A stretch of DNA of 64,000 bases from Deltaproteobacteria bacterium (GTDB lineage Bacteria > Desulfobacterota > Desulfobaccia > Desulfobaccales > 0-14-0-80-60-11), in the NCBI GenBank assembly GCA_030018495.1, contig JASEFS010000005.1, positions 75,153 to 139,152 on the forward strand, written 5' to 3'. Both the position numbers and the translations under genes were made by a program. Position 1 is the stretch's first letter. Each line of letters opens with the position of its first letter. Below, one piece after another: positions 6,231 to 42,989 of the stretch. Below the pieces are notes generated by a model. The model was not told the DNA's origin and ran no database searches. It worked only from the letters and a program-made list of their open reading frames with translations.

Positions 6231-8231
6231 TTAGTCCTGTTTCTCAAACTTATGAATATTCGGCATGAGGGATACTGAGTCCGATAAAAAATGCGCGGCG
6301 CGTTCATAATAAAGTTGGGAGGTAGTATCGTCGGGGTTAAGACGCAGGACCTCCTGAAATTTTTCCGTGGCCCGGTGCCAATCTTTGCGGCGATAGGCGG
6401 CAATGGCATCAGCGAACAATTTCAATGCCGCAGGAAACTCCCCTTGGGGCAGGGGTCCCAGCAACTCGTATAACGTCACGGACTGAGTCCTGCCTTTCAC
6501 CATGATGCGATCCAGTTCGCGCATCATGAAATCTCTTTTAACCAGTTGATACGTGGCTTCGCTTAAAAGAATCTTGCTGCCGTAAAACTTGTTTACCTTC
6601 TCAAGGCGAAAGGTGAGGTTGACGGGATCCCCCATAACCGTGTAGTTAAACCGGTCGCGAGACCCGACATTGCCGGCCACTACCCGGCCTGAATGCAGGC
6701 CTATGCGCAGGGTCTGGTCAGGATGCCCCATCGCCACCCAGTTCTTGTTCAACGTGCGCATGGCTTCCTGCATGTCCAGGGCCGCGCTGCACGCCAGAAT
6801 GGCATGATCGCGCTGGGGCAGAGGCGCACCCCAGAAACACATGATACCGTCTCCGATGTACTTGTCCACCGTCCCTTTGTGGGCCAGAATTATACTGGTC
6901 ATGGCCGTGAAATATTCATCCAGGAGCGTGATAATCTCCTTGGGCGGCAGTCTTTCCGACAAAGCCGTGAAGTCGGTGAGGTCGGCAAAAAGGATGGTGG
7001 CGTCCACCTCCTCGCCCCCGAGTTCCAGCTTTTGCGGGTCGGCTGCTATGATCTCTACAACGGAAGGAGACACATAACGGCTGAAGGCTTGCCTGAGCCA
7101 GCGCTTTTCCTGGATTTCCGCGGCCAGATATTTCAAAGAGTGGGTGGCGTACACCGCAATCAGGCCGACCATGGCGAGAACCGGCGGCATCCAGAAATTC
7201 TTGAGGATGAACAGGCTCAGGGAAACGAACCCCAGAATAACCAGGAACACCAGGAGGGCGACCAAGCCGGGCAGGGGCGAGAGCCGGGCCGCCAGGATGC
7301 TGAAGCCGAGCACCAGCAGTAAAGAAAGAATAAGCCTCGGGAGCCATTGCAGTTCTTCACCCCAGGCTTTCCGCAAGACGGTGGAGATGATGTGGCCTTG
7401 CATCTCCACCCCGGACATGGCCTGTCTGGAGCCGACAACAAAAGGGGTGTAAAAGTTGTCGGCATGGGCCAGAGGGTCGATGCTGGACTGCATAATCCGG
7501 CCGATAAGGACAATGCGGTCTTTAATTTTGGCGGTCTTGGGCATCAATTCGGGGTTGAGAACCTGATAATAGGAGATGGTCTCGATGCTACCCATAGGGC
7601 CGACAAAGTTGATGAGTCCGGAGAGGTCCGCGGGCAGCTCGTGCTGGGGTCGCCAAAGTTTTGCCACTAAGGCCGGCATGGTATCCAGGCCCCCCAGGCG
7701 GAGGTGGAAACGCCGCACCACGCCGTCCGAATCCGGGGTGACCACAAACAGCGCCACGCCGCTGGCCGCTTCGCTGAACATTTTTAGGGGTTCGACCAGC
7801 GTCTGGCGGTAAATACTGGGGCTTTCGAATTTTTCGATGGTACAGGCCAGGATGACGTTGCCGGCCCGCTGTATGGCTTCGGCAAAGGCGAGATCAGCTT
7901 CCGGCGTGGTCGGATCGGCAAACAAGACATCAAAGATGATTAGGCGCGCCCCTGCTTTGACCAGGTTTTGCACCAGTTGGGCATGCAACTTGCGGGACCA
8001 GGGCCAGGGCCGCTTCAGTTCCTGAAACGAAGCTTCATCGATGCCGACGATGAGCAATTCCGGGGGGGGAGGCGAGGCAGGACGCAGCGTGTAGCCGATA
8101 TCGAGGGCAAGATTTTCCAGGGTCTGGCCAAAATGCGAATAACCCAGGCCAACGACGGCGCCGAACACCAGGAGGCCCACCAGCAAAGCCCGGCTAAACG
8201 GCCCCGGAGAAAATTTGGCAAGTGAGGACAT
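6231..8231 (-). CDS. CHASE2-domain adenylate/guanylate cyclase
   Basis: A 666-residue class III nucleotide cyclase. An N-terminal membrane anchor precedes a large extracytoplasmic CHASE2 domain (FDVLFADPTTPEADLAFAEA region), then three closely spaced transmembrane helices. The catalytic domain follows, with both metal aspartates (FADLTDFT) and the GDGIMCFWGAP motif, and NYTVMGDPVNL further on. The C-terminus is a short TPR-like helical tail. It should make cAMP (or cGMP) in response to an external signal. ATG at 8231 is preferred over a TTG 17 codons upstream because a GGGAGAG lies about ten bases before it. Single-gene unit; the ligand is unknown. Confidence 0.88.
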   Translation of the reverse strand: MSSLAKFSPGPFSRALLVGLLVFGAVVGLGYSHFGQTLENLALDIGYTLRPASPPPPELLIVGIDEASFQELKRPWPWSRKLHAQLVQNLVKAGARLIIFDVLFADPTTPEADLAFAEAIQRAGNVILACTIEKFESPSIYRQTLVEPLKMFSEAASGVALFVVTPDSDGVVRRFHLRLGGLDTMPALVAKLWRPQHELPADLSGLINFVGPMGSIETISYYQVLNPELMPKTAKIKDRIVLIGRIMQSSIDPLAHADNFYTPFVVGSRQAMSGVEMQGHIISTVLRKAWGEELQWLPRLILSLLLVLGFSILAARLSPLPGLVALLVFLVILGFVSLSLFILKNFWMPPVLAMVGLIAVYATHSLKYLAAEIQEKRWLRQAFSRYVSPSVVEIIAADPQKLELGGEEVDATILFADLTDFTALSERLPPKEIITLLDEYFTAMTSIILAHKGTVDKYIGDGIMCFWGAPLPQRDHAILACSAALDMQEAMRTLNKNWVAMGHPDQTLRIGLHSGRVVAGNVGSRDRFNYTVMGDPVNLTFRLEKVNKFYGSKILLSEATYQLVKRDFMMRELDRIMVKGRTQSVTLYELLGPLPQGEFPAALKLFADAIAAYRRKDWHRATEKFQEVLRLNPDDTTSQLYYERAAHFLSDSVSLMPNIHKFEKQD

Positions 8232-8657
8232 GCCTGAAGTGCTCTCCCGCAAAGGGAATATTCCTGCCGGGTAAAGCGGCAATCCATTTGATTCTTCTAT
8301 AACGCCTGCTGAACGGCGGTCAAGAAGCCGGCCTCACTGGCCGCCTTTGTGACGCCTTCGCCGCATCATATATGAATCAGTGGAGCGTATGCCGATTAAG
8401 CCTCATTCAGTTTTTTAAGCCTGCAAAAAAGAAAAGACCGGGTCCTTCAAGGCACTCCGGTTTGGCTTTTCTGTCATGAAATACCTTTCTCGGCTGATTC
8501 AGGACAGTCCTCTAAAAAAAAGTTTAATTGATCTGAGCAAATTTGGTCAAGGATTTTAGAAGCAGATCCTGATATTTTGTGCCTTATGCGCTTTAATGAG
8601 TTAAAGTTGTCATCCTGATTGATTGTTATCAGCGCCCGGGCGCGTCGGCAGCAACCC
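8232..8657. other. Intergenic region with weak hairpin
   Basis: 425 bases between the cyclase start and the zinc-ribbon gene end, both minus strand. Around 8427-8475 there is an imperfect inverted repeat (AAAAGACCGG with CCGGTTTGGCTTTT) that could be a weak terminator. No gene is supported. Confidence 0.35.
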
Positions 8658-14265: not shown

Positions 14266-15312
14266 ATGGGGCGCACCGGCACTTGTCAAGAAAGCAGCGT
14301 CACCCTGAATTGTTCGGAAGATAACCTGCAGCCGCCCGCCAGACTGGCTGTCACGGAGCAACCGGGACGAGTCGGCGCCAAAAAAAAGCTTTGGGACAGG
14401 TGGGACAGCGTGCATAGTGCCGCGCCGACAGGCAAAAACGACCACTGCTCGCCTGTGGCCTCCAAAAGCAACTCCTACGTGGTGGCGGTTATCAATCAAA
14501 AAGGGGGCACCGGGAAAACCACCACTACCATCAACTTGAGCGCGGCCCTGGCCTATCTGGGGCACCGCACCCTCATGGTGGATTTGGACCCCCAGGCCCA
14601 CACCACCATCGGCATCGGCGTGGATCCGGATGCCTTCATTGAATCCATGGCCGAAGTCATGAGCGTGCCGCGCAAGCCCATTGCTGAAATCGTCCTGCCC
14701 ACTTATATCATGGGGCTGAATCTCGCACCGGCCCACATTCATCTGGCCCACGTGGCCGAGCAGATTTACACCCGGGTGTTCCGGGAGACCATCCTGGCGC
14801 AGGCGCTCCAGGGCCTGGATTATGATTTCATTTTCATTGATTGTCCGCCGTCCCTCGGGGTTTTGACCATCAACGCCCTGTATGCCTGCGACTTCATTGT
14901 CATCCCCTGCCAGATCTCCCGCTATTCCCTGGACGGCTTGGCGGACCTTCTCACCAGCATAGAAATCGTGAAAAACCTGAGTATCCAGGACCTGTTTCAG
15001 GGTGATCACTTCAGGGTGCTGCTCACCATGTTCGACCCCCGCAACAAGGTCACCAATCAGTATATTTTGGATGAGTTAAGGCCTTACAAAGAGAAGACCT
15101 TTGCGGCTGTGATACGGAGAAACGAGTCGCTCAATCAGGCCCAAATCGCGCAAAAGGCCATTTTTGACTTTGACTTCGATTGCATCGGGTCTCAAGACTA
15201 CCAGCAGCTTGCCCTGGAATTTCTGAACCTTTATCACCGCAGGACCGGCTTGCCCGTGGAGGATAAGGTGCTTAACGCTCAGGGCAACCAAAGCACCTCC
15301 CTGGAGGGTTAG
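14266..15312 (+). CDS. ParA-family ATPase
   Basis: A 348-residue deviant Walker ATPase. Walker A is KGGTGKTTT in AVINQKGGTGKTTTTINL, followed by MVDLDPQAH and the IDCPPSLG Walker B region. These are ParA/Soj signatures: ATP-dependent dimerisation and nonspecific DNA binding used to position cargo. The N-terminal 70 residues are not conserved-looking, and the start is uncertain: ATG 14266 is chosen because GAGGG lies six bases upstream, but a start 16 codons earlier or a GTG later is possible. No ParB follows; the next genes (22 bases on) are a PrimPol-like protein and a MinD-like ATPase, suggesting one operon. Confidence 0.82.
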   Translation: MGRTGTCQESSVTLNCSEDNLQPPARLAVTEQPGRVGAKKKLWDRWDSVHSAAPTGKNDHCSPVASKSNSYVVAVINQKGGTGKTTTTINLSAALAYLGHRTLMVDLDPQAHTTIGIGVDPDAFIESMAEVMSVPRKPIAEIVLPTYIMGLNLAPAHIHLAHVAEQIYTRVFRETILAQALQGLDYDFIFIDCPPSLGVLTINALYACDFIVIPCQISRYSLDGLADLLTSIEIVKNLSIQDLFQGDHFRVLLTMFDPRNKVTNQYILDELRPYKEKTFAAVIRRNESLNQAQIAQKAIFDFDFDCIGSQDYQQLALEFLNLYHRRTGLPVEDKVLNAQGNQSTSLEG

Positions 15313-15334
15313 GGAGCACATTTAAGGCCGCGTT

Positions 15335-16696
15335 ATGCCCTTTGGCATAGAAATGTCCCGAGAGATGTCGACTTCACAGTTCGCCGTCAAAATCGGCCCG
15401 CAGGAGCTCGGGCAGATTTTCACCTTGAGGAAAAATCTCGATCTTATGCGCGTGCTGGCCAGGTTTGCCGAGCACTACCGCAGACTCGGCTGGCCCCTGG
15501 CTGCCCTGGAGGCGCAATCGGGAGCGGACCTTGATATCGACTTCACCTCTTTTAATAAACCTCTGACCAAGCGGCTGATGGATGAAACTCTCCAGGGCCG
15601 GGAAGTGAACCTGGCAGTGCGCCTCGGGGCTTCGGCCCGAGTGTTTGCCTTGAAAATTGCCGCCGACCAGGCGCCCCTTCAGTTGGACAAATGCGGCCCC
15701 TGGCGCAGCACCTGTATCGCCGCGCTGAAAAACCGCCAGGAGCAGCATTTTTATCGGTTACCTGAGGCCTGGGAATTGCCGTCCTCTGCGCCGGCGGACC
15801 ATATACAGGTGTTGGGAGAAGGGGCTTTGGCGTTTGTGCCCCCGTCCCTGGAACCAGACACCGGGCATAACTGGCGCTGGCTCAAGGCCCCCTGGGAAAG
15901 CCCGCCCTGTCCGCCGCCCGCGGGGCTGCGCCGGTTTCTTGAGAAACATGATCTTTTCACCGTCACCCAGACGGAGCCGGAGCCCCGGCTTCTTGCCTGG
16001 AGCATGCTTTTTCCGCAAATTGCCCGCCATAAGGACCTGTTGAGCACCCTTTTGGCCCCGCCGGTATCAGCGGCCCGGTACTACCGGGAGATCATCACGG
16101 AAGCCCTGAAAGCCGGGATTAATGAGAGCAAAATGCTTCAATCCCTGCTATGGCACGCCCCCCATGGAGAAGCCCGGCGTTCGCCGGAGCTCTGGGGTCA
16201 TTTGGTGAGCTTGGTGACCGAACTGACCCGAACCGGCAGGCCGGCTTCATTCCAGCATGGCCGTAAGGGATTGGGGCAGGAACGAACTTCGCCGAAGCCG
16301 CTGGTTCATCACCTGGAAAGGCTTGCGGCCAGGACCCTGGAGTTGGAGCGGCAGTTGGCGGACTTGCAGCAGGCGCCGAAAGGCCATGGGCGAGGAAGGC
16401 GCGACTTGCCCTGCTGGAAGGAGTGGCTGGCCCTCATCCAGCGCTCCGGCCTGGATGATAAAGATATCCAGGATTTTAAAAGGGAGCTGGCGGATTTTCT
16501 CCGGAAAAACCCGGACCTGGCAGGGGATGAGAAAAAGCTTGTCCTGGTGCGGTACTGCTACGCCAACTACATCAAGATCGATCCAGCCTATGACGGTCTG
16601 CCGGAACGGGACCGGCTCGCCGGAGCCGGGGAGATGGCCAGAACCTTTCTCAACTCCCCGGTTTTAAAGATGCCCACCCGAAACAACCCGAGATAA
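15335..16696 (+). CDS. PrimPol-like protein lacking catalytic acids
   Basis: A 453-residue protein of no named family. Residues about 38-195 follow the layout of the N-terminal domain of bifunctional primase-polymerases: HYRRLGWPLAALEA, then VNLAVRLGASARVFALKIAA (family: NxGxxTGxxSGLxVLDxD), a QHFYRLPE strand, and ALAFVPPSLEP...WRWL (family: VxPPSxHPxGxxYxW). The two metal-binding aspartates are replaced (LKI), so polymerase activity is unlikely. Residues 200-300 and a C-terminal helical part (about 325-435) have no match. It lies between ParA and MinD-type ATPase genes with gaps of 22 and 10 bases. A shorter paralogue is at 39422-40474. The fold assignment is inference from motif order. Confidence 0.6.
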   Translation: MPFGIEMSREMSTSQFAVKIGPQELGQIFTLRKNLDLMRVLARFAEHYRRLGWPLAALEAQSGADLDIDFTSFNKPLTKRLMDETLQGREVNLAVRLGASARVFALKIAADQAPLQLDKCGPWRSTCIAALKNRQEQHFYRLPEAWELPSSAPADHIQVLGEGALAFVPPSLEPDTGHNWRWLKAPWESPPCPPPAGLRRFLEKHDLFTVTQTEPEPRLLAWSMLFPQIARHKDLLSTLLAPPVSAARYYREIITEALKAGINESKMLQSLLWHAPHGEARRSPELWGHLVSLVTELTRTGRPASFQHGRKGLGQERTSPKPLVHHLERLAARTLELERQLADLQQAPKGHGRGRRDLPCWKEWLALIQRSGLDDKDIQDFKRELADFLRKNPDLAGDEKKLVLVRYCYANYIKIDPAYDGLPERDRLAGAGEMARTFLNSPVLKMPTRNNPR

Positions 16697-16706
16697 GGAT
16701 CGAGAT

Positions 16707-17705
16707 ATGGCGAACCATTCCAACATAAAATTGTGGAGCATCGGCGGCGGCAAGGGAGGCGTCGGCAAAAGCGTGGTCACCATAGGCTTAGGGATCAGCC
16801 TGGCCCGCCTGGGGAATCGGGTCATACTCCTGGACGGCGATTTGGGGGGGGCCAACCTGCACACCATGATGGGGCTGCGGTTCCCTTCTGTCACCCTGGA
16901 GGATTTCCTCCTCAAAAAGGTGCCCCGTCTGGAAGATGTGGTTCTGGAAACCCCGATTGAAGGCATCAGCATCATCTGCGGCGCGGACGACATCCTGGGC
17001 GCGGCCAATCCCACCTTCCATCAGAAAATCCGGCTGCTGCGGGAACTGGAAGAGCTGCCCGCGGATTTCGTGCTCATCGACTTGGGGGCCGGCACCTCCT
17101 TCAACATCCTGGATCTTTTCAACCACTCCCCCGGGAAAATCGCGGTCTTCAGCGGCGTTTCCACCTCTCTCCAGAACGTCTACGGATTTATCAAGTGCGC
17201 CCTGTTCCGCAAGATTTCCCGTGAGTTTGCCAAAGATGGCGAGATTCTGGCGCTGCTGTACGAAGAAGATCCTGCGGGTGAGGACATCAGTTGCATGGAT
17301 GACCTGGTGGCCCAGGTCAAGCGGGTGGCTCCTGAAAAGTGCTTCCGGCTGCTTAAGGCGCTCCGTGACTTCGAGGTCTTCTTGGTGACCAACATGGTGA
17401 AAAATGACCAGGATTTCCGGGCCGCGGAGATCGTTCAGTCGGTGTGCGCCGACTTCCTGAACATCAAGCCCCAGATTCTCGGCCACCTGCTCGCCGACCC
17501 GCTGGTGGAAGTGGCCATCAACCAGATGGTGCCCTCGTTGCTGCATCAGCGGGATAACAAGATTGTCAGAGGCCTGGAGCAAATCGCCAAACGGATGGTG
17601 CGCCTGGGCCGCCATTCCTTCCCGGCGTGGTCTCCGGAAGAGCCCAAGTCGGCCAAATCCTCTCCCCTGAACATTTTTAAAGAAGCCTTCGAGAGCAGTT
17701 CCTGA
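16707..17705 (+). CDS. MinD/FlhG-like P-loop ATPase
   Basis: A 332-residue deviant Walker ATPase: GGGKGGVGKS Walker A at about residues 13-22, VILLDGDLGGANLHTMMGL typical of the FlhG/MinD branch, and FVLIDLGAGTSFN as Walker B. The family controls placement of flagella, division sites or other surface structures. The middle and C-terminal regions (residues 170-300) are longer than in MinD, and no clear C-terminal amphipathic membrane helix was seen. It begins ten bases after the PrimPol-like gene, so the ParA, PrimPol-like and MinD-like products are probably made together. No flagellar gene is in the window, so a flagellar role is not supported here. Confidence 0.82.
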   Translation: MANHSNIKLWSIGGGKGGVGKSVVTIGLGISLARLGNRVILLDGDLGGANLHTMMGLRFPSVTLEDFLLKKVPRLEDVVLETPIEGISIICGADDILGAANPTFHQKIRLLRELEELPADFVLIDLGAGTSFNILDLFNHSPGKIAVFSGVSTSLQNVYGFIKCALFRKISREFAKDGEILALLYEEDPAGEDISCMDDLVAQVKRVAPEKCFRLLKALRDFEVFLVTNMVKNDQDFRAAEIVQSVCADFLNIKPQILGHLLADPLVEVAINQMVPSLLHQRDNKIVRGLEQIAKRMVRLGRHSFPAWSPEEPKSAKSSPLNIFKEAFESSS

Positions 17706-18676: not shown

Positions 18677-19438
18677 CTATGAAGATTTTTCCTGGGCAAT
18701 GATTTCCTGGGCCAGAGACCGGTAGTCCGCGGCTCCGGAGCTCCGGGGATCGTACTTGGTTATCGGCTGTGCAAAGGAGGGGCATTCGGCCAGGCGGATG
18801 TTCTCCCGGATTACCGTTTGGTAGACCACGTTGCCGTTATGTTCCCTGAGCTGTTCCACCACCTCCCTGGCATGGCGGGTGCGGGCGTCCACCCGGCAGG
18901 CGAGGATGCCGGAGACGCGCAAATCAGGATTGATGCGCTCCTTGACCACATTCACGGTATGCAGGAGCTGGGCCAGCCCGGTCAGGGCCATGACATGGGC
19001 CTCCACCGGCACCAGGATTTCCGCGGCCGCGGCCAGGGCGTTGATGGTCAAAATCCCCAAGGTGGGCGGGCAGTCCATCAACACATAGTCCCAGGCCCCG
19101 GGAGAGAGTTTCGCCAGGTGGCGGGCCAGTATCTGTTCCGCGCCCACCTCCCCTGACAGGATTCTCTCCACCCCCACCAACCACGGCGAGGACGGCGCCA
19201 AGTCGACCCCCGGCACCTCCGTCGGCTGAATCACTTCGCTGAGGCCGGCGTTTTCCACGAAAACACCGTACAGCCCCTTCCCCGGCTCCCTGAGGCCGAA
19301 CCAGGCGGTGGCCGAATGCTGCGGGTCCAGGTCTATCACCAGAACCCGCCGGTGCTCCCCCAACGCGGCAGCCAGATTGACGCTGGTGGTGGTTTTGCCG
19401 CTTCCCCCCTTCTGATTGGCTATGGCGATCTTTCTCAT
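18677..19438 (-). CDS. ParA-family ATPase (orphan, Soj-like)
   Basis: A 253-residue ParA with deviant Walker A in IANQKGGSGKTTTSVNLAAAL, VLVIDLDPQHSATAW and MDCPPTLGILTINAL. Length and motifs match small chromosomal ParA/Soj proteins that form gradients on the nucleoid to position cargo. The ATG at 19438 puts the standard N-terminus (MRKIAIANQKGG) first and has GGGGGAGG just upstream; an ATG 11 codons earlier lacks a ribosome site. No parB is near; the downstream coiled-coil protein is the likely partner. It is transcribed toward the SixA gene. A structured, terminator-like element (19489-19557) lies in its leader. Confidence 0.88.
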   Translation of the reverse strand: MRKIAIANQKGGSGKTTTSVNLAAALGEHRRVLVIDLDPQHSATAWFGLREPGKGLYGVFVENAGLSEVIQPTEVPGVDLAPSSPWLVGVERILSGEVGAEQILARHLAKLSPGAWDYVLMDCPPTLGILTINALAAAAEILVPVEAHVMALTGLAQLLHTVNVVKERINPDLRVSGILACRVDARTRHAREVVEQLREHNGNVVYQTVIRENIRLAECPSFAQPITKYDPRSSGAADYRSLAQEIIAQEKSS

Positions 19439-19488
19439 GTCCTCCCCCGGCTGCGGCTTGTGATAAGCCATGTTGGCGAATCAGGCCA

Positions 19489-21013: not shown

Positions 21014-21091
21014 TGGCGGGGACGACGAGACTTGAACTCGCGACCTCCGGCGTGACAGGCCGGCGTTCTAACCAAGCTGAACTACGCCCCC
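21014..21091 (-). tRNA. tRNA-Asp (GTC)
   Basis: Reads GGGGGCGTAG at the 5' end on the minus strand, anticodon loop CTGTCAC giving GTC, T-loop TTCAAGT, acceptor strand CGTCCCC pairing with GGGGGCG, discriminator G and an encoded CCA (21014-21016). 75 bases without CCA. A second tRNA-Asp copy is at 44008-44084 with a different D-loop. Confidence 0.95.
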
Positions 21092-38887: not shown

Positions 38888-39421
38888 ACCTTATCAACCC
38901 CTGCCGGCCGGGTGCAAACAGGGCGCCATGAACGGCGCCCCTGCGCCTGGCATGACGCCTCTTTCCAATTTCCCGGTTCTTTTTATCTGGTCCCCGGGCT
39001 GCGCTTGGGAACCGAGTTTTTTCCCCAAGCTGAGCTTGGCGCCGACGGGCGTTCCCAAGTACAACTTGGGAACGAGATCTAAAATGTAGAGCCGGCGCCC
39101 TCGCCGGCATGGAACCGCCGGGGGCGGCGGTTCTGCATTTGCCTGTTGGGATTGATTTTTGCATAGTCAAAATGACCATTCGAAAATGGCCATTTTGATC
39201 ATAGACTTTCCTGATGAACCCGCCTCATCCTAGACTGAACCCTCGTGAATCTCATTAATTGAAATCAGCTATAGCTGCGGCTGTTGTTGTCGCTGAAAAG
39301 AGAGGGTTTCGCTGAGCAGCCCGGGGATTCTGATGGCCTGAGATTGTTGGGACAAATATCATGCTTGTCCCATTATTTGTCATCGCAAAGCACTGCCACT
39401 TTAATTCAAGGTAAAATAGAA
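38888..39421. other. Repeat-bearing intergenic region
   Basis: About 530 bases. Positions 38989-39076 hold a diverged copy of the palindromic element family (GGGCTGCGCTTGGGAACC, CCCCAAGCTGAGCTTGGCG, GTTCCCAAGTACAACTTGGGAACG). Positions about 39088-39135 hold GC-rich short palindromes (GCCGGCGCCCTCGCCGGC). A 32-base palindrome lies at 39167-39198. No gene is supported. Confidence 0.7.
39167..39198. promoter_or_regulatory. 32-base palindrome upstream of PrimPol-like gene
   Basis: TCAAAATGACCATT-CGAA-AATGGCCATTTTGA, with a single mismatch in 14 pairs. It is AT-rich and lies about 220 bases before the PrimPol-like paralogue. It has the look of an operator for a dimeric regulator, or a transcript hairpin; no T-run follows. 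Confidence 0.5.
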
Positions 39422-40474
39422 ATGTCTAAAGGACAGACCAGCGAAGCAGCCTCACAGGTATTTTCCAGAATGCTGCACTCTAAAGAACTGGAACGCATCA
39501 TTCAGGCCCGAAAAAACTTGAGCGACGTCGAGAAGCTGGGAAGATGTGCAGCCCGATATCTAAACCTGGGCTGGTCGCCGGTGGTTTTGGAGGCTCGCCA
39601 CGGCACCGATCTGGGGGTGGATTTTAGCCAGCCTCAAGTCACCTGGCTAGAGTCGTTGATGGATTTAACTTTGCAGGAAGCCAGCCTTCGTCTCGCCATT
39701 CGCCTCCAGCCAAACTCGCAGCTCTTCGTGCTCAAAGTTCATACTGCTCTGGGCAGTTCTCTCCTGAACCGCCTGCAAGGTTGGCGGTCTCCCTGCGTTG
39801 CCCGAGCGGGGAATAACTGGGAACACCATTTCTTTTTGCTGCCTAAAGTCTGGGGCTTTGCTCCGGAGCTTCCCGATTTTGAGGAAAATTCTCCCATAGC
39901 CTTGTTGGGACCTGGAAAACTGATAGTGGTTCCACCTTCTACGGAATTGGCTGGTGGCGAAGTTTGGCAGTGGCTGTATCCCCCCTGGGAGCAGGCCCCG
40001 TGCCAGCCATCTCCAGAATTGCTGGCTATTATCGAGGAGTTGGGCTTTATTTCCCAAAAAAATCTTTCAGAGGACGACTTGCCCTCTTGGAAAGAAATTT
40101 ACCCACTTGTCTGCCATTCGCATAAGCTGTTGCAAGCTTTGCTGGTCCAAGAGAAAAGTCCGGTCCTGTATTATCGAAAAATTCTTTTTGAGGCTATACG
40201 GGCAGGCATGCGCGATCCAGCATTGCTGCAGGGTTTGCTATGGCATGCCCCATTCAGTGAGGCCCGGACTGACCCAAAGGCAAAGAGCCAATTTTTCCAG
40301 TTGGCTGCGATCATTCAGGAGCTTTTATCAAAGCCTCCCACACCAGCCTCCCGGCAGAAAAGGGACGCCGGAGAGGAACGCTTGCTTGAAAAGAACATGA
40401 AAAAGCTGGAGGAACTGCGCCAGGCTGTGGAAGAGTGTCTAGCCGCAATTCAGGACCTGTCTGATTCAAAATGA
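39422..40474 (+). CDS. PrimPol-like protein lacking catalytic acids (paralogue 2)
   Basis: A 350-residue paralogue of the protein at 15335-16696. Matching segments, in order: LNLGWSPVVLEARHGTDLGVDF, LRLAIRLQPNSQLFVLKV, GWRSPC...EHHFFLLPKVW, KLIVVPPSTELAGG.VWQWLYPPWEQAPC and LLQGLLWHAPFSEAR. The layout is that of PrimPol N-terminal domains but the DxD metal pair is absent (LKV). The C-terminal 100-residue extension of paralogue 1 is replaced by a short coiled coil. ATG 39422 aligns with the paralogue start; an in-frame ATG at 39284 would add 46 residues with no match. It stands alone, without ParA neighbours. Confidence 0.6.
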   Translation: MSKGQTSEAASQVFSRMLHSKELERIIQARKNLSDVEKLGRCAARYLNLGWSPVVLEARHGTDLGVDFSQPQVTWLESLMDLTLQEASLRLAIRLQPNSQLFVLKVHTALGSSLLNRLQGWRSPCVARAGNNWEHHFFLLPKVWGFAPELPDFEENSPIALLGPGKLIVVPPSTELAGGEVWQWLYPPWEQAPCQPSPELLAIIEELGFISQKNLSEDDLPSWKEIYPLVCHSHKLLQALLVQEKSPVLYYRKILFEAIRAGMRDPALLQGLLWHAPFSEARTDPKAKSQFFQLAAIIQELLSKPPTPASRQKRDAGEERLLEKNMKKLEELRQAVEECLAAIQDLSDSK

Positions 40475-40706: not shown

Positions 40707-42989
40707 ATGGCGGGCAAACTTTTTCAAGATCTTTTCCAGGGGCAAATGGACTTTATTTTTTTCTTCAAAGGCCTGGCCTTTTTGCTGGTACTGGCGGTCG
40801 CGTGTCTGTTTCGCAAAGATACCTCCCAACGCCTGCCGTGGCGCTGGTTCGGGTTGTTCGCCTTGGCGCAGGGGATTGCTGCCTGGCTGTCTTTGATAGC
40901 TTTATATTTTGGCAAGTCTCTTCCTTTAATAACCATAGGCACAGGGTTGGAAATTATATCCTGGGTGTTGTTAGCGGAATTCGGACGCTCAGGATTAAGC
41001 CGGCTGGTGGGACGTGATTCGGGGTTATGGCTTATTGCCTTGCTGCTGATGCTCACCGGGTTGGGCGGCCTCAAAGGATGGAGCGGCATAGAACAGACAA
41101 GCCGCTACACCTTGGGATTAACAGGGGGCCTGTGGGCTGCTGTTGCCCTTTTCTTGGCCGGGCGTCATCTCCCCACCAGGGAGCAGGGCGGCAGTCTCAC
41201 CGCAAGCCTTTGCTTGGGACTATTCTCATTAAGTGTGGCGCTTTTTCCTCCGGGTTCACCGGCATCATCGGGTTCCTTTCTTAACCAGGCTCTCTTTTTA
41301 CAATATACCGGCATACCTCTGGAATTCTGTCAGGGTCTGCTGGCGTTCGGGATGGCGGCCGGCATCTATGGCTTGCTGCCTTGGCGGCACAGAGCCGAGG
41401 AAAGCCAGGAGAATCGTCGCCGTTCCCGTTTTATGTTTGCCTTGCTGACCACGCTTGCCGTCATCCTGGGACTGGGAAGCGTCCTGACGCTTTACCTGGG
41501 GGAATGGGCCCATAACAAGCACGAAAAAGTCAAGGCCGAGGCGCAAGAGTTCGCCAACATCGTGGTGAGCCGGTTAAACACCGAATTCAAGCGGATGGAA
41601 GACGGGGTCACTTCCCTGGCCGAAACGAATTGGCTGCCCGAAGCGGTGCAGACTTTTAACAAAACAGACCAAAGAGACATCAACGCCTTACTGGACCGCT
41701 ATCGGGACACCCTTGACGCCTCGGTTGTCTATCTCATGGACCGGAACGGTAAAACCATAGCATCTTCAAATCGCGCCGCACCGGACAGCTTTGTCGGCAA
41801 AAATTACGAGTTCCGCCCTTATTTCAAACAGGCCATCGACGGCAATGTGGGCCGGTATTTTGCCGTAGGGGTCACCTCCAAAGTGCCCGGATATTATGTC
41901 AGCCAGCCGGTGAAGCTTCCCTGGCGCAAAAACATCGTCGCCGTAGCAGTGGTGAAAGTTACCCTGGACAATATCACCGCCGAACTGCAAGCCGCCGGGC
42001 AGAAGGGCAATTCCTTGATATGCCTGGCGGACCCCAGAGGCATCGTTTTTTTGGCCAGCCAACCGGACATGATTTTTAAGACCCTGTGGCCGGTGGCGGA
42101 GGAAGACAGGAGCAGCTTGCGGCAACAATACGGCAAGGAGCAGTATCCCGCAATTTTTCCGGAAAAGATAACGGACGGCAGCAAAGTGGAGTACCAGGGG
42201 CGCAATTATCTGGCCTCCTTTGCCGGAACTATTCACGCCGGCTGGTCGGTATTCTTTTTCCGTCCCATCGAGCTGGTGGGGGTCTACCGCCTGACCGGCA
42301 TTGCCGTCGCCTGCATCCTGGCAATCCTGGCTTTGGTTATCGTGGGCACCAATTTTTACTTTAAGGAGTCCAGCATCGCTGCGGCAGATCGATTCCGGGC
42401 CATGTTCGATGCCACCCCGGAAGCCATCGGGGTTGTCGATCCGGATACTTTACAGATAGTTGAAGCCAATCGCTCTTTGGCCTCATGCCTGGGCTACACG
42501 CAAAAAGAGCTGGTGGCCTTGAAGCTGGACCATCTGGTAAGCCTGAAGCCCCAACAAATTCAGGACCAGCTTGCCCAGCTCATAATGGATGAAGAGACCT
42601 TCAGCGCCCAGTGGCGAGCCCGCAAAAAGGATAACTCCTTTTTGTCGCTGGAGGTTAAGGGATCTAAACTGATGCATCAGGAAAAAGTGCTGGCCATGAT
42701 CTTTTTCCGTGAAGCCGAAGAGGTTGCCTCGCCTTTTCTTGCCAGGCTCCGGCAAAGAGGCCGCAGCTTGCCGGTACAGGCTGACGCCTCCAGCGCCTCG
42801 GCGGCAATCCGGATGGATTTATCGCCTGAGTTGCCGCAAAATATCCCAGCCAACACTGAAGAAAAAAAGCCCCTTGATTACGAAAATTTTGATCAAGAAG
42901 CCAGAAAACTGATCAAGAAAATCGAGGAAGCCATAGTCAAAGTGGAGCGGTATCGGAAAAACTCTGCGAAGCGTCCGGCAGAAAAATAG
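40707..42989 (+). CDS. Membrane Cache/PAS sensor without output domain
   Basis: A 760-residue sensor. About eight hydrophobic segments fill residues 15-270, an integral-membrane sensing region. An extracytoplasmic double-Cache domain of the DctB type follows (DRNGKTIASSNRAAPDSFVGKNYEFRPYF, GYYVSQPVKL), then another membrane helix near residue 540 and a cytoplasmic PAS domain (FRAMFDATPEAIGVVDPD). After the PAS there is only a helical tail of about 80 residues; there is no kinase, cyclase, GGDEF or methyl-accepting domain. It probably signals by binding a partner. A 10-base repeat (AAGTCGCAAA, about 40630-40660) lies upstream. Confidence 0.8.
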   Translation: MAGKLFQDLFQGQMDFIFFFKGLAFLLVLAVACLFRKDTSQRLPWRWFGLFALAQGIAAWLSLIALYFGKSLPLITIGTGLEIISWVLLAEFGRSGLSRLVGRDSGLWLIALLLMLTGLGGLKGWSGIEQTSRYTLGLTGGLWAAVALFLAGRHLPTREQGGSLTASLCLGLFSLSVALFPPGSPASSGSFLNQALFLQYTGIPLEFCQGLLAFGMAAGIYGLLPWRHRAEESQENRRRSRFMFALLTTLAVILGLGSVLTLYLGEWAHNKHEKVKAEAQEFANIVVSRLNTEFKRMEDGVTSLAETNWLPEAVQTFNKTDQRDINALLDRYRDTLDASVVYLMDRNGKTIASSNRAAPDSFVGKNYEFRPYFKQAIDGNVGRYFAVGVTSKVPGYYVSQPVKLPWRKNIVAVAVVKVTLDNITAELQAAGQKGNSLICLADPRGIVFLASQPDMIFKTLWPVAEEDRSSLRQQYGKEQYPAIFPEKITDGSKVEYQGRNYLASFAGTIHAGWSVFFFRPIELVGVYRLTGIAVACILAILALVIVGTNFYFKESSIAAADRFRAMFDATPEAIGVVDPDTLQIVEANRSLASCLGYTQKELVALKLDHLVSLKPQQIQDQLAQLIMDEETFSAQWRARKKDNSFLSLEVKGSKLMHQEKVLAMIFFREAEEVASPFLARLRQRGRSLPVQADASSASAAIRMDLSPELPQNIPANTEEKKPLDYENFDQEARKLIKKIEEAIVKVERYRKNSAKRPAEK

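Follow-up and report, generated by a model that had tools for sequence, protein, structure and literature searches.

We analyzed a 64,000-nt stretch of the genome of a Deltaproteobacteria bacterium (order Desulfobaccales; contig JASEFS010000005.1, positions 75,153 to 139,152; hereafter the window), in which an operon of three co-directional open reading frames (ORFs), with intergenic gaps of 22 and 10 bp, encodes a ParA-type ATPase, an inactivated PrimPol-like protein (PPL), and a MinD-like ATPase. Judged from sequence comparison, the operon is the rewired copy of a widespread MinD module linked to cyclic di-GMP (c-di-GMP), with a ParA in the place of a PilZ-like protein, and the same short peptide, LWDxWD, is carried by both. 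Gene starts were called mechanically, and many of the relatives compared are metagenome-assembled contigs.

The module and its ParA form

PPL genes occur in 20 of the 29 genomes of the order, the window's genome having five paralogues, and the neighbors of 33 PPL genes were analyzed. The usual setting is PPL - PilZ-like - MinD-like; this trio often lies divergent to a TrpB-like gene, with an HD-GYP protein (HD_5) following it. In three genomes the trio comes directly after genes for Tad pili (L011, L069, and L072), with Tad and T2SSE domains confirmed at L011. Other settings are PPL - (PilZ) - MinD - AAA+, PPL with PAS/HD-GYP alone, and PPL beside an E1-like protein; histidine kinases and response regulators are neighbors at sister loci. 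A ParA takes the place of PilZ only in the window, where the operon has no PilZ partner, at L081, which lies ~6 kb from TadE/TadG-like genes, and at L088. The order ParA - PPL - MinD is complete in the window and at L081, and L088 shows ParA - PPL, the contig ending inside PPL. The basic unit is PPL - PilZ-like - MinD-like, and from it the ParA version is derived; because the recurrence is family-wide, a chance layout is excluded.

The PilZ-like proteins match PilZ weakly (E = 3e-4 and 0.007). Their model (pLDDT 70) consists of a barrel, then a helix carrying the motif, then a two-helix hydrophobic membrane hairpin, and the barrel gives weak fold matches to the PilZ structures BcsA, PlzA, MotI, and MrkH. 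Phylogenetic trees place the ParA-linked PPLs and a second PPL of the window in one clade (97/96), and the MinD-like proteins of the window and L081 as sisters (100/100). With these trees read without a root, replacement of PilZ by ParA is the simpler direction because the PilZ form is phylum-wide.

Some neighbors of PPL recur elsewhere in the order. A PPL paralogue lies beside a ThiF/E1-like protein in two species (L010:10429-11697 and L065:56-1327), and an AAA+ protein 3′ of PPL-MinD is conserved (L079:2898-4415, L087:3216-4733, L078:7954-9426, and L071:12698-14164).

ParA and PilZ-like proteins share the LWDxWD peptide

The ParA gene of the operon (14266-15312, + strand) starts at an ATG with GAGGG 5′ of it, and encodes 348 aa with an N-terminal extension of ~70 aa. 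The protein matches AAA_31 (2e-49), and the solved structures that it matches include ParA/Soj, at 6e-45 and 1e-34 (the latter being T. thermophilus Soj). In its DPRN and IRRN segments, arginines line up with those of Soj at two positions; such arginines have a role in DNA binding by ParA. The LWDRWD peptide (KKKLWDRWDSVH; 14380-14415, + strand) occupies residues 39-50, within the extension. All three ParAs at PPL loci have KLWDRWD[SKR][VLM]H in their N-terminal extension, and KELWDxWDxxH comprises the most conserved residues of the PilZ-like family, located in the helix after the barrel (PilZ-tail version: LLWDLWNKEIKP). A ParA paralogue that is universal in the order (29 genomes, with 62-71% identity in nearly all of them) can be aligned no earlier than residue ~62 and is without the extension.

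In the window's genome, the operon ParA and the PilZ-like gene of C48 are the only genes with the LWDxWD coding pattern. Allowing Phe at the first place, the DNA pattern has 22 matches in the 29 genomes; all 16 Leu-type matches fall in PilZ-like or ParA genes of the module, and the six Phe-type matches lie elsewhere. The count alone is without significance, because the reversed DNA pattern gives 45 matches; the placement of the matches is significant. A PWQxWE variant ends the AAA+ protein only in the two loci without a PilZ gene between PPL and MinD, and its status as a related form of the peptide is suggestive only.

Other ParA genes were observed as well. Next after the order-universal ParA (29/29 genomes) comes a small basic ORF that overlaps it (MSKKKxxxGKKTKLAKL...), usually with a divergent canonical PilZ gene; this pair, seen at L177 (6820-7698), L178 (5658-6485), L180, L181, and L183, has the appearance of a two-component ParA system not described before. 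Near the operon, on the opposite strand, lies another ParA-family gene (18677-19471, − strand) with no obvious partner.

The peptide accompanies a MinD subfamily across the phylum

The MinD-like gene (16707-17705, + strand) encodes 332 aa, with the deviant Walker A motif GGGKGGVGKS at 16743-16772. The protein matches the NUBPL/CbiA P-loop families, its nearest solved structure in a profile search being FleN/FlhG (8.6e-20), and it is 50-57% identical to the MinD-like proteins of sister modules. The DQAxxLR motif is absent in the 14 MinD-like members checked, and in several members the C-terminal tail is basic and aromatic.

We built a MinD profile from these loci, ran it over 297 genomes, and inspected neighboring genes. 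The window protein scores 537 bits, within the peptide-linked range. Among inspected genes above about 345 bits, a peptide-bearing neighbor is present at 35 of the 36 loci: in the order, 20 PilZ-like proteins, two ParAs, and two AAA+ proteins with the weak variant; outside it, 11 PilZ proteins. These 11 end in ...DHxxLWxLWx, of the form LW(D/E/S)LW, and five of them are confirmed as PilZ by Pfam. None of 10 lower-scoring, more distant MinD-like loci has a peptide neighbor (Fisher's test on loci, kinship ignored: P = 2.7e-9), and none of five canonical PilZ proteins that are not beside this MinD subfamily has the peptide. We infer that the MinD-like ATPase, and not PPL, is what the peptide pairs with, because the PPL profile, within its sensitivity, detected no PPL in the genomes sampled beyond the order. 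The peptide is probably a docking or activating site for the MinD-like ATPase.

An orphan MinD-like gene whose sequence is close to that of the window copy (L214:7464-8456) neighbors a gene that encodes PilM and PilN domains.

PPL descends from PrimPol and has lost the catalytic acids

The PPL gene (15335-16696, + strand) encodes 453 aa. Taken alone, the window PPL has no Pfam or NCBIfam match; its residues 35-186 match the phage DNA primase family phrog_1156 (6e-8), and 22 of the 31 family members in our alignment match Prim-Pol PF09250 (best 9e-12). The AlphaFold model (pLDDT 84) has an AEP/PrimPol-fold domain at residues ~44-206 (15464-15952, + strand). Foldseek of this model returned S. 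islandicus PrimPol (3m1m, 1.7e-6, the best PDB fold), ORF904 (1rni, 1.2e-4), and NrS-1 PrimPol; a direct sequence search of the PPL profile against PDB gave no match.

Motif I reads E/K/R-h-x in the 31-sequence alignment, the first acid being E in 27 sequences, K in two, and R in two, and the second never being D. K or R is found in the four members of the ParA-linked clade, E in all others. In the window, the former motif I (FALKIAA; 15644-15664, + strand) has K-I-A in place of the catalytic DhD. The position of the motif III D is never D or E in any of the 31 PPLs, and the ExHFY segment is kept in 30 of them, in a register that is off by one relative to the PrimPol motif II histidine. PPL is derived from PrimPol and has lost its catalytic acids; an enzyme reading, and that of an active primase in particular, was rejected on the motifs (0/31 keep DhD or the motif III D). 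The median pI of the PrimPol-fold domain is 5.3, vs. 8.8-10 in three true PrimPols, and because the domain is so acidic, a DNA-binding surface on PPL seems unlikely. Outside the order, a search with the PPL profile gave weak matches, and those inspected were bona fide PrimPols. A preliminary description of this DNA had already named the three closely spaced genes as encoding a ParA, a protein of PrimPol layout without catalytic acids, and a MinD/FlhG-like ATPase, and all of these identities stand.

PPL has a C-terminal helical domain of ~70-80 aa (16415-16654, + strand), which is recognizable in the model and is also encoded by itself in small ORFs of this genome (L012:8288-8578, L014:8050-8340, and L013:8561-8995). 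The C-terminus of PPL also resembled the pilotin InvH, with an E of about 1.4, and this was taken as chance. The second PPL of the window (39284-40474, + strand), which belongs to the clade of the ParA-linked copies, is without the C-terminal domain and adjoins a dCache/PAS membrane protein (40707-42989). The window further contains a CHASE2 protein with an adenylate/guanylate cyclase domain (6231-8282, − strand).

Discussion

We propose, as the reading that on balance we find somewhat more probable than its negation, a rewired module of spatial regulation in which the PilZ-like protein has been replaced by a duplicated ParA carrying the same peptide, PPL is a scaffold or adaptor, and the nucleoid takes the place of the membrane. 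ParA/MinD ATPases dimerize on ATP and bind nucleoid or membrane, and their partners release them, commonly by short terminal peptides (PMC10241942). In FlhG, an N-terminal DQAxxLR helix stimulates FlhF, so that an ATPase acts with its own peptide on a partner NTPase (PMC12826062), and BcsE, with a dead GGDEF domain, binds the MinD-like BcsQ in c-di-GMP signaling (PMC7439463). By analogy with these systems, the ordinary form of the module would have a membrane PilZ-like protein docking on the FlhG/MinD-like ATPase via LWDxWD, with PilZ giving membrane and signal and the enzymatically dead PPL serving as scaffold or adaptor subunit. In the window form, a duplicated ParA with the peptide in its N-terminal extension replaces the PilZ-like subunit. 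ParA-ATP dimers would coat the nucleoid, the LWDRWD peptide would recruit or activate the MinD-like ATPase together with PPL, and the complex would be tied to the nucleoid through the ParA cycle and not to the membrane. We infer that ParA took the place of PilZ by acquiring the peptide, which would have shifted the complex from membrane to nucleoid. The cargo positioned or counted would most likely be an envelope or surface structure, e.g., a pilus-type machine. The operon, the dead-PrimPol ancestry, the conserved module, the exchange of PilZ for ParA, and the shared peptide with its tracking of this MinD subfamily come directly from the comparisons; peptide-MinD binding, nucleoid tethering, the scaffold role of PPL, and the cargo are the parts of this proposal that we draw by analogy.

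Several observations weigh against this proposal. The PilZ sensor is lost in the ParA form, so that any c-di-GMP input would need another protein, and degeneracy already marks the order's PilZ-like proteins. Evidence for the ParA form comes from three genomes, in one of which the contig ends inside PPL. No cargo gene adjoins the window operon. At two loci the sole peptide candidate is the degenerate PWQxWE, and the MinD paralogue at L214 is the lone exception without a peptide neighbor. The peptide could also bind PPL or something else, though PPL also occurs without the peptide at PPL-HD loci.

Two other readings assign the parts differently. The module might be a transcriptional or second-messenger regulator, with the MinD-like protein as an anti-activator, like FleN on FleQ, and PPL as a nucleotide sensor. 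The nearness of FleN among solved structures, the HD-GYP, PilZ, histidine kinase, and response regulator neighbors of sister loci, and the capacity of dead palm-fold enzymes to turn into sensors (BcsE; PMC7439463) are all consistent with this; however, no FleQ-type activator is adjacent, a ParA with conserved basic residues points to the nucleoid, and the PilZ form is membrane-anchored, and we regard a regulator of this kind as unlikely. If PPL were instead the hub bound by the peptide, the PilZ-like protein or ParA would be its membrane or nucleoid anchor and the MinD-like protein a separate effector. PPL, peptide carrier, and MinD-like protein do co-occur at most loci of the order, but the 11 loci outside it have the MinD-like protein and PilZ-LWxLW in genomes without PPL, L215 has PilZ and MinD without PPL, and PPL-HD loci have PPL with no peptide, all of which makes a PPL hub quite improbable.

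That the peptide in ParA is a coincidence, in an ordinary chance neighborhood of three genes, we consider very improbable: short motifs do arise easily, as the reversed pattern illustrates, but the peptide has the same position in three ParAs that have diverged, is confined to the ParAs of PPL loci, and shows extended identity (KLWDRWDxxH), and the paralogous ParAs are without the extension. We give almost no credence to the view that the operon is what remains of a replication-partition module (primase plus ParA) from a plasmid or phage, a possibility that the preliminary description had raised. A ParA adjoining a PrimPol-derived protein and the phage primase homology would suit such an origin, but the PPL family is confined to one bacterial order, with several conserved paralogues per genome and a uniformly dead active site, and forms a coherent clade in related genera. 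The locus itself bears no mark of mobility: there are no integration signatures, neither an integrase nor an adjoining tRNA (the nearest is at 21014), the GC content of the operon (58.2%) equals that of its flanks (58.3/57.3%), and the neighbors are housekeeping genes, the upstream biotin carboxylase being the same in a second species. A plasmid search gave no match, and the single viral-contig match was of 27% over 130 aa. Flagellar placement was rejected as well, since FlhA is present in 15 of the 29 genomes and PPL-MinD loci also occur in several FlhA-less genomes; the neighbor analysis revealed no conserved flagellar neighbor of the modules. A defense system was likewise rejected, PADLOC giving just weak matches, to the P-loop.

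The rewired spatial-regulation module agrees best with the positioning system with a PrimPol-like adaptor that the preliminary description had named as one possibility, except that the three genes in just that combination do not form the basic unit: the usual setting has a PilZ-like gene where the window and L081 (and, in part, L088) have ParA. The preliminary description had missed the link to second messengers (PilZ, HD-GYP) and the peptide that ParA and PilZ have in common, and a role in placing surface structures draws its support from the sister modules linked to Tad pili and from nothing else. A broader generalization, which we advance tentatively and would sooner doubt than assert, is that LWDxWx is a transferable docking peptide marking an undescribed class of second-messenger-gated MinD proteins across Desulfobacterota, in which the move from PilZ to ParA switched membrane to nucleoid, a dead PrimPol came in as a structural subunit, and a stack of two ParA/MinD ATPases works on a single cargo. 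If true, acquiring a peptide of six residues lets a positioning ATPase switch both its partner and its positioning surface, the interaction code of an orphan MinD branch becomes directly testable, and another DNA polymerase-primase fold has turned into a noncatalytic subunit outside replication and repair.

Comparison with known systems

In the open-licence literature we found no paper on a peptide-bearing PilZ partner of MinD-like ATPases, nor on a PrimPol-derived MinD partner. The window ParA resembles ParA/Soj of ParABS in its ATPase core and in the basic residues aligned with Soj, and differs in its extra LWDRWD extension and in having no ParB beside it, ParB_N matches occurring only at C59 and C48 and the best ParB of the genome lying on another contig. 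FlhG/FleN, the nearest solved structure to the window MinD-like protein, shares the deviant Walker A, but the window type is without the DQAxxLR helix, no FlhF neighbor was seen, and it is present in FlhA-less genomes. With Prim-Pol (PF09250; 3m1m, 1rni), PPL shares homology through its relatives, the fold, and the motif order including GxGG..PPS; in contrast, it lacks the catalytic acids in all 31 members, has an acidic domain and no detected helicase or PriCT domain, and is never seen in a replication context. BcsE-BcsQ-BcsR of E. coli cellulose secretion likewise joins a degenerate enzyme domain to a MinD-like ATPase in a c-di-GMP context, but BcsE is a dead REC-GGDEF and not a PrimPol, there is no ParA, and no cellulose genes were seen at PPL loci. 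TadZ/CpaE is, like the MinD-like protein of the module, a MinD-family ATPase linked to Tad pili; however, Tad clusters already encode CpaE, and the PPL-PilZ-MinD module is additional to it.

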